DNA from: Arthonia radiata
Lineage: Eukaryota > Ascomycota > Arthoniomycetes > Arthoniales > Arthoniaceae
Direction of reading: 5' to 3'
DNA: 64,000 nt
Assembly (NCBI GenBank): GCA_002989075.1
Contig: PSQN01000005.1
Span: 868,001-932,000, forward strand
The notes beneath the pieces were generated by a model. It searched no databases and was not told the DNA's origin. It saw only the letters and a list, made by a program, of their open reading frames with translations. Of this stretch, positions 7,012 through 46,765 are shown piece by piece. Position 1 is the first letter of the stretch. Every line of letters starts with the position of its first letter. The position numbers were made by a program, and so were the translations under genes.

Positions 7012-9682
7012 TCCAGTGCGCTCGAGAGAAGCACCGCTCAAGGAGCCGCCGCCAGCACCAAATGGCTATCACGCCCACCAGTCCTACTACACAGCTCCGC
7101 ATTATCCCTCAAATGGCGCTGTCGCACCTCGTCCCGCGTGCCCTCCTCCGCCGCAATCGGTGACCACGACACCTTTAACTCACCACACGCAAACGCTCCC
7201 GTATCTCAATGCTCCTTACGCCCCACCGCGGGAGCACGCCTACCCACCACCTCCGCCGCATCCATCATCCCAGACTGCACCCGCTTCTGCATATAGTCTA
7301 CCAACGCTCAACAGCTCTCTGAAAGCCTCCTCGATCAATGCCGTCATCAATAATGCGAGCGCGCCAATGCATGCCAGAGTATCGTCAGACGCTCACGAAG
7401 GGCTTAGAGACAGCCGAGCTCCGACTCGACAAGTGTCGAGCGAGCAGTTACGGTCAGACAATCACAACTCGTCGCGGCCGCCTTCCATGACGGCTCGCAA
7501 TGTCGTCGACGTACGCGACGTGCCTGGCGAAGGTGAATGCTATGTTCTTGGGGATGGCTCGCTCATGCGCACCATGATCGCTGGCGAGCGCGTCAATCCA
7601 GAGTGGGGTATTACCAAAGCCGGAAAGCCTAGGAAGCGTCTGGCAAAGGCGTGCGCTACATGCAGGGAGAAGAAGATCAAGTGTGAGCAAGGAGGTCCGG
7701 GCGACACGAAATGTGTGCAGTGTGCCAGGCTCAATCGCCCATGCAAGATGTGAGTACCTCCAGATCTTTCTAGACAAGCTGTTGTAGGCTAACCTTTTTT
7801 TGCAGACCGCAAGAATCGGCGACTGATAACGTTCCTGAGCAAAAGTCAATGAAGAGGCCTGCTCCTTCGAACGGTTTGAGCGCGGGTCGTTTCCCACCTC
7901 CAAGCAGAGGCGAGAGCTCCGCAAGACAGCGCTATGACACGGCTGTACCGCATCAGACAATGAACGGCTATTCGACACTTCCTGGTGACCGCTTAAGCAC
8001 CCAAGTCAAGCCGTTTGATGAGGAAACCTTCAATGGGTCATATCAAGATCTGCAAGAGTCTCAAGCAGCCATTCTCGCACGAAAGCGAGGGAGGCAGTCT
8101 TCCAAAGGGCGGAAGTTCAGGCAACCGCGTCTGCCTGAGCCTGCCGATGCGGATACGTATCATGCGAAGGTCGATCCATATGAGGCGGATCCAGAGGGAA
8201 CACTATACTTCTTGGAGCTCTTCTTCCACCACCGCAACGCTTCTCCGTACGTGATTTGGCCGCGCGAGCATTTCTTCACGTGGACAATCAACTGCAGGAA
8301 TAAGTCCCCTGATGACATAATGGTGCTGTACGCCATCATGGCTTTTGGCTCCGCTTTCAGCCTGGATGCTTCTGGCAGGGAAATTGGCGAGAAGTGCTAC
8401 CAAGTTGCATATTCTTTAGAGAGAGAACGTGTTGACAAGCCGTCGTTGCAACTTATGCAGGCACGAAGCGCCCTTCTCCTCTACAACTTCGCACGAGGCA
8501 ACTTTGAAGGAACATTCGAGTACACCGCTCATGCGATACGTACAGCAACTTCGATGAGGTACACTGACGAGAACCGGGTGTCTGATATCGACGAAACAAG
8601 GAAGATCCACGACTTCGACATGAACGCAACTCAGATCAAAGAGTGCCGACGTAGGAGCTTCTACATTACCTACTTCATTGACGTGAGTCCCTATCAATTT
8701 TCCGATTTTGCTCAACATGCTAACATTGATCTAGCGGTATAACAGCTTCTCTTACGGCTCCATGGGCCAGATTCACGACATTGAGCTGTTCCTTCACCTG
8801 CCGACACACGAGCATGATTACGAAGCAGGCCTCGAAAAGCCAACCGCTGCATTTGGCGGTGAAGAGGTCCGCGAGGCACACGTTGCAGAACCCTCGCCAA
8901 TGGCGCTCCTCGTCGAGGTCACTTCGATCTGGGGTGATGTCACGGGCAACTCCTATCGCTCTGTCAATCGCGTCCCTTCAATTTATGTCGAGTATTATGA
9001 AGATTACTTCCGTCGCACGAAGGAGCGAATGCGGGCATGGGTCCATTCGCTGCCTGAGCATCTGAAGTACAGCAGAGCCAACATCAGCCGCGCCATCAGC
9101 GAAGGCTACTTCACTGACTTCTACGTCCTGCAAGCCATCTACCATCTCGTTGGCATGAAGCTCGGCCGGACAGGTCGGGTCGATATCCTCCCAGACCACA
9201 TCAAGCGCCGCAACCTACGCATGACACGCTGCTACGCCAGTCGCTTCTTACGAATCATACACGCCTTGTCAGATCAAATCTACAAGCCAGCGAATGACGA
9301 CATCGACCTCGCTTTGTCTCAGCCCTTCCCTGGTTACGTGATACTCAACGCCTGCGATGTGCTTTCGGCCGGGGCGAAGACGTCCGATCTCAACAAGATG
9401 ACGAACGGTGAGCTCAACGACGCAAAGATGGTGCTCGAGCAGGGCAGCAAATTCTGGGCTGTCAACCAGAAGCAATGTCGCGCCATCGACGATCGTCAAG
9501 GCTATCTCAGCGCTCTAGGCATGAACGGTGGAGACTTCAACGACAAGATGAGGGTCGAAAACGCGATTGACCGGAGCTTTCTACCCGAGAATCACGATCT
9601 AGTCTACAAAGTTGACGACAAGCTGTTCTGGGATGTCGTCCTCTCACCGGATTCCGATGAGCATGATCCGATAATGACATGA
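6920..9682 (+). CDS. Zn2Cys6 transcription factor with fungal-specific regulatory domain
   Basis: Predicted nuclear DNA-binding regulator of 884 residues; target genes unknown. Exons: 6920-7749, 7806-8682, 8735-9682; both introns are gt-ag (56 and 52 bp), the second with a gctaac branch site. The N-terminal 240 residues are rich in Pro, Ser and Tyr. The zinc cluster follows: Cys245, 248, 255, 265, 268 and 275, spaced C-x2-C-x6-C-x9-C-x2-C-x6-C, in the context CATCREKKIKC. The first intron interrupts the codon just after the last cysteine, as in many members of this class. A helical region from about residue 400 to 600 (including WPREHFFTW and later RARSALLLYNFARG-like segments) fits the Fungal_trans regulatory domain. 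The start is the first ATG of the open frame, though an upstream exon cannot be excluded. I do not recognise a specific named orthologue. Confidence 0.88.
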
Positions 9683-42627: not shown

Positions 42628-44576
42628 TCATGTCGAACCAACGTACAATCCTCGAATCGCCTCCATAATCCCCCAAGCACCTGGATCAGGCGGAAGGTCC
42701 TGCCCTTCTTGCACGCCCACGTACGTCGCGCGGCCGAGCCGTGGCGTTAGCGTTTTCGTGCCCTCTGCGGCGCTCACGACATCGTCGACAGCGTTCTTGA
42801 AGCTGCCTTTGCTCAAGCCCTCAGCAAATGGGATCAGCACGTCCATCACCGTCCTGTCGCCCTTCCGCGCTGCTGTGTACCCTTGCAGGTTCTTCAACGC
42901 GGTGCTGAATGCCTGCGCCCACAGCTGTATGTCCTTCTCGCCCGTGGTGACTCCCTTTTGCAGCGCAGTCGTCAAGCTCACGATGAAAATGCCGAGGATG
43001 CCACCGAGGGTGCCGCCCATCTTCGACTCGACGATGTGCTCGAGTTCATACAGCACTTTCACTGCGGAACCATCTTTCGCGAGCCCGCTGTCCAGCGCTT
43101 GCAACAATGAGGTGCCGCCAGTCTTCAGCGTCTCGCCGCAGTCGCCATCACCCATCACTGTGTCCCATTTAGTAAGGTCCGGCTCTCGGGCGTTCACAGC
43201 CTCGGCCGCGGTGCGCAGCATCTTCTCCAGCAGTGCCGGGTCCACTTTTACATCCTTTGCAGGATCAACGCTCCGCGGCTCTTCTACATTGGCGCTCTTC
43301 ACGAACTGGGACTCTCTCTTCTCGAGTCGCGTTGACTGTCTACCCTGCATGCCCTCCCACTGCGTCGTTGTTCTCACATCCAGGTATTCGATCATCTGTG
43401 GTATACTGTATTTGACCCTTTCTCTTGTCGCCGCGCTGAGGTTGAGTATACTGGTGGAAAATGCCGGTGCATTCAGCGAGCTCTCAATCGTGCCCGAGTA
43501 GACACGCACCGGGCTGGTCTTGTAGTCGCGCTCCAGCTGATTCAGGAGCTCGTCGACGAGCGCGCCGAGCTCGAGATTGGACATGCCGCCGAAGTTGGAC
43601 ACCATCAATACGATCTCGTCTCCGTCTTGTCTCTTGACGTATCCGCGTTCAGGATCTGTTTCGTCGAGCATGTATTTGAGGTTGGTTGCGATGAACTCTT
43701 CGGCGGACGGGACGGGTGTGATCTTGCGGTATCCCTGAGAGCTGTCAGAGTTGTGCTTTCCAGCTTCATAGAGAAGACGATGCTTACCGGCTCGTTGTGC
43801 GGTCCTGTACCCAGCTCAATCTCATTGCTTGCCAACATTGCATGCTCCGTTCGTCCTGGGACATGGCAGTGATCCATTGTTGATGCGATGCTCACCATGC
43901 CAGCGCATAGGCCCTTGGCGAGGCCCATGAGGTCGTCGAAAGCGCCGCCAGCGGCAGATGCGGCACTGACAATCTTCAAGACTGCGCAAAGATTGGATGG
44001 TCAGTGATGCTATCCTGTTCACAGTACAAGCCCTGTGAGGATACTCACTGCCAACTTGGCCTGCCAGACCCCGACGGCCGACCATGCTGCCCTTCCTGCC
44101 AACAGACACATCGTCTCCGGCGATCACGATACCGCAAGGAGCCTTGTTCATCGCATTGGCTTTCTCACAAGCCAGACCGAAGTGGAGGCAGTCGCCTGTT
44201 GCTTCGTCAGCTACACTGCGCTACCATCACGCTGTAGCTTCGCGATCATACCCGTGTAGTTCCCAACGATCAAAATGTGGCCTTTTGAGGAAGGCACTGC
44301 TTCGATCGCACTTAGAACCTGCTTGGTGCTGGGACTGGCGAAGATGTCTCCCGATGCTGCCGCGGCAAGCATATTGCGTCCCACGTAGCCACCCCATGCT
44401 GGCTCATGGCCTGCGCCGCCTCCACTGATGATCGCGACATTGTCCTGACTGTGTGTGGTGTCATAGACGACGCGCGTGTCTTCGATGAGCTTCAGGTCGG
44501 TATTATATGAGATAGAGCCACGGAGGCCTTTGACGACGAGACCGTCCGCGGAGTAGAACAAGTGACGTGCTGACAT
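42628..44576 (-). CDS. DhaK/DhaL-type ketose kinase, probable erythrulose kinase
   Basis: ATP-dependent kinase of the dihydroxyacetone kinase family, 590 residues. Exons in transcript order: 44252-44576, 44049-44195, 43788-43981, 42628-43734. The N-terminal DhaK domain binds the ketose: [14 protein letters not shown] (residues about 51-64), [17 protein letters not shown], and GTGPHNEPG, where His219 is the residue that forms the hemiaminal bond with the substrate. The C-terminal DhaL domain binds ATP-Mg: MGDGDCGE near residue 413, [12 protein letters not shown] and [11 protein letters not shown]. All key residues are intact. By sequence alone it could be an ordinary dihydroxyacetone kinase. 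The divergent RpiB-type and TPI-like neighbours point to erythrulose kinase (EYK1 of Yarrowia) instead. No PTS1 signal at the C terminus. Confidence 0.88.
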
Positions 44577-44983
44577 CTTGCTATAGTCTTCGCTATATTA
44601 GCAAATGCTACGCGCAGAGTCTTCTGGGAGCATTGTGTTCGTGGTTGTCTGCGGTCTTTGCCAATGCTGAAGGGCATCAAAGCCCCACCAAGGGCCCCGC
44701 ATGCCCTTGACCCCATTACAGCATCTTGACCGCGAGCTGCAGACTGAGCTCTGCAAAAGAGCAACTCAAGCGAACTAGAGTCGCTCGTGGCAATAAACGC
44801 CGAGTCAAGTAGGACCCTTTGATTTCGCGTGCTGTGACGTTTTTGGGCCGACTCGTTAGCAGTATCCAACCCTTTTTTTTACGACCACGAACAGTTCAGC
44901 TCATCACATCTCTCTTACAGCAATTGGAAACGACCTACTTCTCTTTACCATTAGTGACTTAGACAGCACAAATTACACACACA
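44577..44983. promoter_or_regulatory. Divergent promoter of the kinase and RpiB-type isomerase
   Basis: The 407 bases between two start codons facing away from each other are likely to co-regulate both genes. A CreA-type carbon-repressor site (GTGGGG on the minus strand) lies at 44683-44688, and a caagtaggacc sequence related to the accessory-island box lies at 44809-44819. A T8 run and pyrimidine-rich leader precede the isomerase start. The CreA match is short and could be chance. Confidence 0.5.
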
Positions 44984-45600
44984 ATGGCCACCAACGGGAC
45001 CTCCACGCCCAAATGGCGGATTGCCATGGGCGGCGACGTATGGACTGTGCCCATAGCTAACGTGAGCGCTCCATCCACTAACTCACCTTGTAGAGCGCAG
45101 GTCTCTCATATAAGAGCAAGATCAAGGCCGATCTCGAAGCCGACTCTCGGGTCGCGAGTGTCATTGATGTTGGCGTGAAAGATTCTGGAGACAACACTGC
45201 GTATCCGACGCCAGCCGTCGAGGCAGCTCGCATGGTGCAGCGTGGTGAAGCAGACAGAGCACTCTTGATTTGTGGCACTGGCCTCGGTGAGTAAAGCATT
45301 GACTCAATGCGATTTGATCGTTTAGCACCAGGCTGACAGTCTCGACCAGGTGTGGCAATATCAGCGAACAAAGTCAATGGCATCCGAGCCGTCACCGCAC
45401 ACGACAGCTTCTCCGTCGAACGTGCGGTACTCAGCAACAATGCGCAGGTGCTCTGTATGGGTGAGCGTGTCGTCGGTCTGGAGCTCGCACGTCGTCTCGC
45501 CAAGGAGTGGGTGGGCTACGAGTTCGATACCAAGTCTGCGTCTGCGCCGAAGGTTGAAGAGATCAACAAGTACGAGGCGGAAGAAGCCAAGAAGGCTTGA
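44984..45600 (+). CDS. RpiB/LacAB-type sugar-phosphate isomerase, probable erythrulose-4-phosphate isomerase
   Basis: Small aldose-ketose isomerase, 165 residues. Exons: 44984-45037, 45094-45286, 45350-45600. The first donor is gtatgg after GGC GAC; this gives IAMGGDSAGLSYK, matching the family start (IAIGCDEAGYEYK type). The conserved VDVGV-like [16 protein letters not shown], the active-site block [16 protein letters not shown] and [27 protein letters not shown] follow. Usual cysteine at position 17 (GCD) is Gly here. The family includes ribose-5-phosphate isomerase B, and the bacterial EryI/DerI enzymes that convert D-erythrulose-4-phosphate to D-erythrose-4-phosphate; in Yarrowia the homologue is EYI2. 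Its divergent pairing with the ketose kinase supports the erythrulose role. Confidence 0.87.
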
Positions 45601-46009
45601 AGACTTGCTCTACGCTCACAATAGCTGCGCGAGGGGTTTGCTGTGTACGATAGCGTCATGAGCGTCGTGAAGTTTCAGATGATTCATAAGTTCCCTCGGT
45701 GTGTGCTTACAGGTCACGCTCGATCGTCGCTTTGAAACAGGGATCTTGCCTTCTTGCTTAACAACTGGGACGAGAAAATTCCTAGCGAAGGACGCAGCTC
45801 GGCAAAGCTAACTCACCTCGGCTTAGTCTTTTTGAGTATGCTTCGCCTTTGGTGCAGTAGAGCTTGCGGCAGCTTCTCTTCTTTATCCTCGCAAAGCAAT
45901 CACACCTGGCGTTTCGCACTAGATTCAAATAGAGGAGTCCAACTACGCATGAACAATCTCCGCTCCAAGCGACCGTTAGCAAAGGGTTTCCGCCATCTCA
46001 TCACTTACA
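45601..46009. other. Spacer within the erythrulose cluster
   Basis: The 3' flank of the RpiB-type gene and promoter of the TPI-like gene. No coding sequence or named site seen. Confidence 0.5.
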
Positions 46010-46765
46010 ATGGCCCTGCAAAGGCCTAAGCGCCTCGTAGGCGTGAGTACTAAGATGTATTTCGGTGTTGCGCAGACGAGAGACTACGTGGACAAAGTGT
46101 TGAGAAAGCTATCGGGCAACAACCGGCTCTTAACGAAAGCAGACGTCTTCGTCATCCCAGACTTTGTGTCTCTTGCCAGTGTGACGGATATGGCGAGAGG
46201 GACCGGCCTCTTGGTTGGTGCTCAGGACTGTTACTCCGAGGACAAAGGCGCTTTCACTGGAGAAGTCTCACCCAGACAGCTCAAAGAGGTCGGTTGCAAC
46301 ATCGTAGAGCTCGGCCATGCTGAACGTCGTCGCCTGTTCCACGAAACCGACGAAGAGGCGGGCCAGAAAGCAGGAGCAGCATGTAGGAACGGGATGATAC
46401 CGCTGGTCTGCATCGGCGAGAAGACTAAAGGCGAAGTCAGCGTAGCAGTGTCTGAATGCCAAGTCCAGGTGGAAGCATTGACCAAAGCCGTCCCGGATGA
46501 TGCAGAGATCGTGCTGGCATATGAGCCAGTGTGGGCAATCGGGAAAGCCGAGCCGGCTGGTGCAGACCATGTGGTAGGCGTCACTCGAGAGCTGAGGAAA
46601 TTGACGCAGTCAAGAAAAGGAACCACAAGGATATTGTACGGCGGAAGTGCTGGCCCGGGGTTATTCGCGAAGCTCAGCGAGGGTGTCGACGGCCTCTTCC
46701 TCGGCCGCTTTGCGCACGACCCAGATCAATTCCTCAAGACTGTCGAGGAGATTGCTACCACATGA
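46010..46765 (+). CDS. Triosephosphate-isomerase paralogue, probable erythrulose-1-phosphate isomerase
   Basis: TIM-barrel isomerase of 251 residues in a single exon. The three catalytic residues are present: Lys15 (VSTKMYFG), His103 (ELGHAERR) and Glu172 (YEPVWAIG). The motifs differ from housekeeping TPI: the N-terminal NWKMN is STKMY, SERR is AERR, and loop 6 is AIGKAEPAGADHV rather than AIGTGKTAT. The phosphate-binding RILYGGSAGPG is close to canonical. Housekeeping TPI genes of ascomycetes carry introns and the canonical motifs, so I take this as the paralogue group that isomerises L-erythrulose-1-phosphate to D-erythrulose-4-phosphate (EryH in bacteria, EYI1 in Yarrowia). The adjacent RpiB-type gene and kinase support that. 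Substrate is inferred, not seen. Confidence 0.87.
   Translation: MALQRPKRLVGVSTKMYFGVAQTRDYVDKVLRKLSGNNRLLTKADVFVIPDFVSLASVTDMARGTGLLVGAQDCYSEDKGAFTGEVSPRQLKEVGCNIVELGHAERRRLFHETDEEAGQKAGAACRNGMIPLVCIGEKTKGEVSVAVSECQVQVEALTKAVPDDAEIVLAYEPVWAIGKAEPAGADHVVGVTRELRKLTQSRKGTTRILYGGSAGPGLFAKLSEGVDGLFLGRFAHDPDQFLKTVEEIATT

Follow-up and report, generated by a model that had tools for sequence, protein, structure and literature searches.

The three genes considered in the current work lie in a stretch of 64,000 nucleotides of the genome of Arthonia radiata (contig PSQN01000005.1, positions 868,001 to 932,000; the whole of this stretch is named "the window"), where they together occupy positions 42628-46765 and specify a Dak-family kinase, an isomerase of the RpiB/LacAB family and a paralogue of triosephosphate isomerase (TPI). 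With a probability of about 0.87, as judged from sequence comparisons, this cluster would serve the catabolism of L-erythrulose, and so most likely that of erythritol. In the proposed route, a presumed polyol dehydrogenase would oxidise erythritol to L-erythrulose, which would be converted by the Dak-family kinase, holding the ketone through His219, to L-erythrulose-1-phosphate. Next, the TPI paralogue would generate D-erythrulose-4-phosphate, from which the RpiB homologue would form D-erythrose-4-phosphate, a compound that would enter the pentose phosphate pathway. The substrates, the direction of flux and the induction of the genes are predicted in this scheme from what was observed, i.e. 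that the genes are present, intact and clustered, the families to which they belong, the number of copies of each and the diagnostic residues that they encode.

The kinase gene (44576..42628, minus strand), a candidate for an L-erythrulose kinase of 590 amino acids containing DhaK and DhaL domains, is composed of four exons separated by introns at 44251-44196, 44048-43982 and 43787-43735, all of the GT-AG type, and its sole stop codon is terminal once these are spliced. The RpiB/LacAB-family gene (44984..45600, plus strand, 165 amino acids), a candidate for a D-erythrulose-4-phosphate isomerase, consists of three exons with introns at 45038-45093 and 45287-45349. The TPI paralogue (46010..46765, plus strand, 251 amino acids), a candidate for an L-erythrulose-1-phosphate isomerase, is intronless and contained in a single frame. 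Exon limits were placed by eye and by homology, not from transcripts; all three genes are intact. The kinase and RpiB genes are divergent, with start codons 407 base pairs (bp) apart, and the intergenic region between them (44577..44983, no strand assigned) is a candidate shared promoter, while the TPI paralogue is located downstream on the plus strand. A preliminary description of this DNA had reported the same coordinates and arrangement, together with an intact catalytic His219 in the kinase, and the spliced frames agree with it, the histidine of the GPHNEPG motif being residue 219. Among the relatives listed, the closest named ones are those of Coniocarpon cinnabarinum (Arthoniaceae, Arthoniales), with 86% identity for the kinase, 88% for RpiB and 79% for TPI; Alyxoria varia, another relative, also belongs to the Arthoniales.

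The genome (33,499,693 bases in 16 contigs) was searched with family profiles, by which Dak1 and Dak2 were each found at one locus, in both cases that of the window kinase, and LacAB_rpiB at a single locus, that of the window RpiB gene. The TIM family was found at two loci, namely the window TPI paralogue and a second locus (C1:4159k) which splices to an intact TPI of 246 residues with the usual TPI motifs. Considering that this second TPI is intact, glycolysis does not depend on the window TPI. An RpiA locus is likewise present elsewhere in the genome, so that the window RpiB is one of at least two candidates for a ribose-5-phosphate isomerase, and both window isomerases are free for another function. 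The possibility that the window RpiB is obliged to act as a ribose-5-phosphate isomerase was rejected in view of this RpiA locus. FGGY_N matches are spread over three contigs, with a strong one at C1:698k, and one of these matches may represent a glycerol kinase. The genome note for A. radiata gives 33.5 Mb, 17 scaffolds and 6,931 genes (PMC5887037). When the latter number is taken as the genome total, the chance that the only RpiB gene lies within two genes of the only Dak gene, and the second TPI gene within two genes of the RpiB gene, is roughly estimated at 3e-7, and co-location by chance was rejected on the basis of this rough estimate. The same estimate bears on a reading in which an ordinary dihydroxyacetone (DHA) kinase happens to have unrelated, spare genes for TPI and RpiB as its neighbours. 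Such a reading is in keeping with the names of the NCBIfam models matched (glycerone kinase and ribose-5-phosphate isomerase) and with the genome search having revealed no Dak gene other than that of the window kinase, but it is made very improbable by the rough chance estimate, by the recurrence of the grouping in fungi and bacteria, by the TPI tree and diagnostic residues described below, and by the existence of RpiA and a housekeeping TPI.

The best structure match of the window TPI is 3s6d (8.4e-60), a putative TPI which we take to be from Coccidioides, and the second best is the L-erythrulose-1-phosphate isomerase EryH (11ef; 1.6e-41). Among the 60 of 184 structure matches shown, these two rank above every chain that is named plainly triosephosphate isomerase. 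A tree was built from 66 rows, including 17 of the 120 listed fungal proteins and all 46 bacterial rows. In this tree, for which the program warned of long branches, among them that of the genome's own housekeeping TPI, the fungal cluster TPIs fall, together with one bacterial operon set, on one side of a branch with support of 100/99, the housekeeping TPIs, a second operon set and EryH being on the other. Nine housekeeping TPIs, including that of the same genome, form one clade (100/97) outside of which the window TPI is placed, and EryH sits with the second bacterial operon set (100/88). The preliminary description had counted against its reading a paralogue that groups with housekeeping TPI in a genome without another TPI gene; neither applies here, as the paralogue stands apart (100/99) and an intact housekeeping TPI lies elsewhere in the genome. 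The alternative that the window gene is the only or the housekeeping TPI was rejected, given the second intact gene and the 100/99 split.

The same division is seen at two diagnostic positions of the TPI alignment. Among 38 operon-type bacterial rows, Ser takes the place of the TPI Asn in 36 (two unread); Asn is retained in seven of eight bacterial housekeeping rows (one unread), and the GG loop reads GR in 17 readable operon rows (21 unread) and GG in all eight bacterial housekeeping rows. The window TPI possesses Ser and GR, and the C1 housekeeping TPI possesses Asn and GG. When scored against NCBIfam, the window TPI is under the cut-off for all nine models listed and the genome's other TPI passes TIGR00419; since an EryH-like bacterial protein (L033) passes the TPI model NF000722, the NCBIfam TPI models do not cleanly part the two functions.

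For the window RpiB, the nearest structures are 3qd5 and 3sdw of Coccidioides immitis. The corresponding paper describes the loss of phosphate-binding residues, the replacement of a conserved His by Ser109 and the presence of a separate RpiA, and a shorter substrate is suspected there (PMC3212906). The window RpiB keeps the reactive Cys (CGTGLG) and has Ser (SNNAQV) in place of the ring-opening His (His102 site). Ser occupies this site throughout the 120 fungal relatives listed; of 71 operon-linked bacterial rows, 69 have it and two are unread, and 20 further paralogue rows are distributed between Ser (11), His (5) and unread (4). Some sources already label fungal members of the family D-erythrulose-4-phosphate isomerase 1. 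The bacterial relatives (best 80 of 582) are 66-77% identical to the window RpiB, and fungal RpiBs outside the Arthoniales, mostly 69-76% identical, are about as close, which suggests that the fungal RpiB gene may have moved between kingdoms. In an RpiB tree in which 27 of the 120 listed fungal rows and 58 of the 91 bacterial rows were used, the fungal sequences are nested within the actinobacterial diversity, with a base that is not resolved, and are split over more than one clade: a group of 25 out of 29 (93/92) and, apart from it, the Coccidioides chain together with three rows of Armillaria type that do not join this group.

The kinase, which carries fused DhaK and DhaL domains (Dak1 and Dak2 matches) and is 59-86% identical to 120 listed fungal relatives, is the weakest link of the erythrulose reading as far as its substrate is concerned. 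In the DHA-kinase chains shown (26vk, 2iu4, 1un9, 1un8 and 3ct4), a Lys precedes an NYTGD-like motif and a His follows GHEPA or GHEPL; the use of this Lys and His as marks of DHA kinases is our own reading of these five chains, two of which are nearly identical. The Lys site presumably corresponds to Lys104 of E. coli DhaK, a contact to the substrate. The window kinase has neither mark, with Gly at the Lys site and Trp at the His site. At the Lys site, 114 of the 120 fungal relatives listed carry Thr, two Ser, two Gly and one Leu (one unread), and the His site holds Trp in all 119 that were read. In 78 bacterial operon kinases, Gly is found at the Lys site in the 76 that were read, and at the His site 64 have Phe and one has Tyr, 13 being unread. 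Furthermore, the ketone-binding His is preceded by Pro (GPHNEPG) in 120 of 120 listed fungal kinases, a position at which the bacterial operon kinases have Ile.

A quick kinase tree of 30 rows (15 of the 120 listed fungal and 12 of the 78 bacterial rows; SH-aLRT without bootstrap) shows two clades, one of fungal cluster kinases and one of bacterial operon kinases, with two DHA kinases on the fungal side. The residue changes common to fungal and bacterial operon kinases therefore look independent. The only fungal DHA kinase compared, 26vk, does not belong to the clade formed by 16 fungal cluster kinases (SH-aLRT 100, no bootstrap, in this quick tree). The preliminary description had counted a grouping with DHA kinases against its reading: on this point the position of 26vk and the replaced Lys and His speak for the reading, and the passing score on a glycerone kinase model, given below, speaks against it. 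The possibility that the fungal kinase arrived with the bacterial operon was rejected, considering that the bacterial operon kinases are only about 28-30% identical to the window kinase (12 rows compared) and form a separate clade.

Two further observations concern database records. The Alyxoria varia kinase (P0122, 857 amino acids) is annotated with a C-terminal class II aldolase domain at residues 650-833, which reflects either a neighbouring gene merged in the annotation or a true fusion. Proteins labelled Carpinus fangiana and Quercus suber (P0126, P0303 and P0281) group with or closely match fungal ones, and these plant records probably hold fungal contamination.

The grouping of the three families recurs in bacteria and in many other filamentous fungi. 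Bacterial loci were represented by the best 80 of 582 confirmed RpiB stretches in genome contigs, chosen by RpiB similarity, of which 79 are actinobacterial by title and one is labelled Vibrio cholerae; these 80 loci are not independent, as many are close relatives (Curtobacterium above all), and some contigs are short. A Dak-family kinase is located within 500 bases of the RpiB gene in 61 of the 80 and within 5 kilobases (kb) in 74, the corresponding numbers for TPI being 34 and 36. In fungi, the kinase and TPI are found on equally long contigs in 13 of the 16 named species common to both match lists, equal contig size being an indirect sign of linkage and the species having been matched by eye; the remaining three species belong to Fusarium. 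Locus tags from one assembly were readable for five of the 13 (Alyxoria, Chrysothrix, Neoarthrinium, Parahypoxylon and Hypoxylon texense), and in these the tags of the kinase and TPI are two apart, which leaves room for one gene between them. By the same indirect sign, again read by eye, the kinase and RpiB are on equally long contigs for all six shared names, i.e. Coniocarpon, Alyxoria, Chrysothrix, Sarocladium, Hirsutella and the record labelled Carpinus fangiana. This recurrence, together with the clustering, the TPI tree and the diagnostic residues, supports the earlier proposal that the three genes make up a coherent erythrulose pathway; the accompanying suggestion that novelty lies in the arrangement found here is overstated, as this arrangement is not peculiar to the genome, judging from the equally long contigs of kinase and TPI in 13 of 16 named fungal species.

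In the contig labelled Vibrio cholerae strain 35D (L041), a kinase-TPI-RpiB block is present whose TPI groups with those of Arthrobacter and Kocuria, and this record is probably mislabelled or contaminated.

The bacterial loci also bear on the identity of the C4 compound. The same three families could serve a different C4 compound, be it a polyol such as a threitol or a ketose such as D-erythrulose, and bacterial pathways for several tetritols, said to have been described by Huang in 2015, reportedly employ these families. In 44 of the 80 bacterial loci no TPI gene is located within 5 kb of RpiB, as a D-erythrulose route would permit. Such a route needs no TPI-type enzyme, however, and in the window a TPI gene is both linked and conserved; since by pathway chemistry a kinase and an RpiB alone would suffice for D-erythrulose, the presence of a linked TPI is taken as a sign that the pathway is entered at L-erythrulose. 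L-threitol would likewise yield L-erythrulose and may be its source. Overall, a different C4 substrate is considered improbable here.

A number of observations weigh against the assignment to L-erythrulose catabolism. The window RpiB passes the NCBIfam model RPI_actino, named ribose-5-phosphate isomerase (189 against a cut-off of 168.2), as well as the NCBIfam RpiB model (144.3, cut-off 135), and fails NF051858, which represents the rhizobial D-erythrulose-4-phosphate isomerase DerI (146.7, cut-off 240). The operon-linked actinobacterial RpiBs score likewise on these models, and the ribose-5-phosphate isomerase label may therefore simply be old. The window kinase passes TIGR02361, a glycerone kinase equivalog model (626.8 bits, cut-off 574.95); since scores above this cut-off are also reached by a DHA kinase of solved structure (744.2) and by a relative of the window kinase from Trichoderma (692.5), this model does not tell the two kinds apart and does not settle the kinase substrate. 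None of the 52 ADH_N candidates in the genome, all of which were scored, and none of the 18 SDR candidates scored (of 158) lies in the window, in line with the preliminary description, which had noted no erythritol dehydrogenase gene there. Among the ten Pfam-scanned frames described below there is neither an erythritol dehydrogenase nor a Euf1-like gene, Zn2Cys6 genes not having been searched for. Three motifs are tied to Euf1 targets in Yarrowia (PMC10935855), and ATGCA, CGGAT, CGGCTT and their complements are all absent from 44577..44983; one CGGCTT is present between the RpiB and TPI genes. In addition, one Yarrowia paper proposes that phosphorylation precedes oxidation (PMC5992420). Finally, the rows of the TPI, RpiB and kinase trees do not include the Yarrowia proteins EYK1, EYI1 and EYI2.

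The surroundings of the cluster were surveyed through 12 picked frames, not including the TPI frame, of which ten lie outside the cluster; this survey covers part of the window, and genes with short exons could escape it. The Pfam scan of these ten returned Fringe-like, TrkH transporter, DUF4185, PLU-1/JmjC, pyridine nucleotide-disulphide oxidoreductase, glycogen synthase and XRN1 matches, with three frames unmatched, and none of the ten resembles a pathway member. The nine sugar transporter candidates scored (of 145) are all located outside the window. As no scored candidate lies in the window, the dehydrogenase and the transporter are either unlinked to the cluster or have escaped detection. 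The genome's best SDR and best Zn-type ADH matches are located about 1.1 kb apart in opposite orientation (G000:C15:556406-558585), and constitute a candidate polyol dehydrogenase pair. Within the window, an open frame of 315 residues without a Pfam match (8735-9679, plus strand) resembles, on visual inspection, the C-terminal end of a transcription factor from fungi.

A. radiata is probably a lichen-forming fungus, and we assume that it has a trentepohlioid partner of its own. Roccella and Lecanactis, both members of the Arthoniales, are hosts to Trentepohlia partners that are listed as releasing erythritol, and tetritols are given as the main goods of Trentepohliales and Chlorophyceae, with the addition that erythritol may stay unchanged in the fungus (PMC10952756). 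The order to which A. radiata belongs is thus probably one in which an erythritol pathway is to be expected if the fungus burns what its partner provides. On this basis we tentatively put forward, as a possibility of rather less than even odds, that the cluster is the entry for burning Trentepohlia erythritol in an Arthoniales lichen fungus, contrary to the published view of unchanged erythritol, and that a bacterial-type RpiB and TPI were joined to a separately recruited fungal kinase whose pocket was altered at the two sites that have also changed in bacterial operon kinases. The same chemistry may instead serve turnover of the fungus' own erythritol as an osmolyte, or use of erythritol from a source other than the photobiont, a role which is compatible with L-erythrulose catabolism and for which we would give nearly an even chance. 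Such turnover is favoured by the occurrence of relatives of all three proteins in many fungi that form no lichens, by the production and renewed use of erythritol in osmotically stressed Yarrowia (PMC10935855) and by the statement of reviews that erythritol appears unchanged in lichen fungi (PMC10952756), whereas the erythritol-releasing partners of Roccella and Lecanactis argue for a supply from the alga. Because many non-lichen fungi carry the same genes, their presence alone does not prove a symbiotic role.

With respect to significance, the cluster may show how a fungus uses the sugar alcohol supplied by its algal partner. Erythritol is reported to be the chief compound handed by Trentepohlia to lichen fungi, and three genes in a sequenced host make its fate there directly testable. 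The available text of the literature searched contains no description of such a cluster in a lichen fungus. This pathway and a similarly built cluster are already published for Yarrowia, and the lichen-fungus host is the new setting.

The erythritol cluster of Yarrowia lipolytica (EUF1, EYI2/EYL2, EYK1, EYI1/EYL1 and EYD1) comprises the same three enzyme families as the window cluster, and its reaction order and families match the route proposed here (PMC9835291). EYI1 is the RpiB-like YALI0F01628g and YALI0F01584g, i.e. EYI2, is TPI-like (PMC5992420), the reverse of the naming in the preliminary description; another group uses the names EYL1 (RpiB-like) and EYL2 (TPI-like) (PMC9835291). EYK1 and EYL1 are divergent and separated by 438 bp (PMC9835291), compared with 407 bp between the kinase and RpiB genes here, and a TPI-like gene is close by in both clusters. 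In the window, this TPI gene is located on the RpiB side, whereas that of Yarrowia lies, according to the locus numbers, on the other side of EYK1 (PMC9835291). Furthermore, the Yarrowia cluster includes EYD1 and EUF1, neither of which was seen near the window cluster among the frames and candidates scored.

The actinobacterial Dak-RpiB(-TPI) loci are alike in that their RpiBs are 66-77% identical to that of the window, their TPIs are about 33-47% identical with matching motifs, and their kinases belong to the same superfamily. They differ in that these kinases are only about 28-30% identical (12 rows) and constitute a separate clade, and in that the genes are mostly arranged as same-strand operons, in contrast to the divergent pair found here. 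These loci are probably the tetritol pathways described in mycobacteria. EryH (11ef) and the window TPI both have Ser at the TPI Asn site and GR in the phosphate loop, but EryH belongs to the second operon-linked subtype (WKM, GHSER) and the window TPI to the subtype with GVS[LT]KM and GHAER. The nearest solved structures of the window isomerases are those of Coccidioides, namely 3qd5/3sdw (RpiB) and 3s6d (putative TPI), and the cluster suggests a function for these as well as for many fungal proteins that are labelled TPI, ribose-5-phosphate isomerase or dihydroxyacetone kinase.

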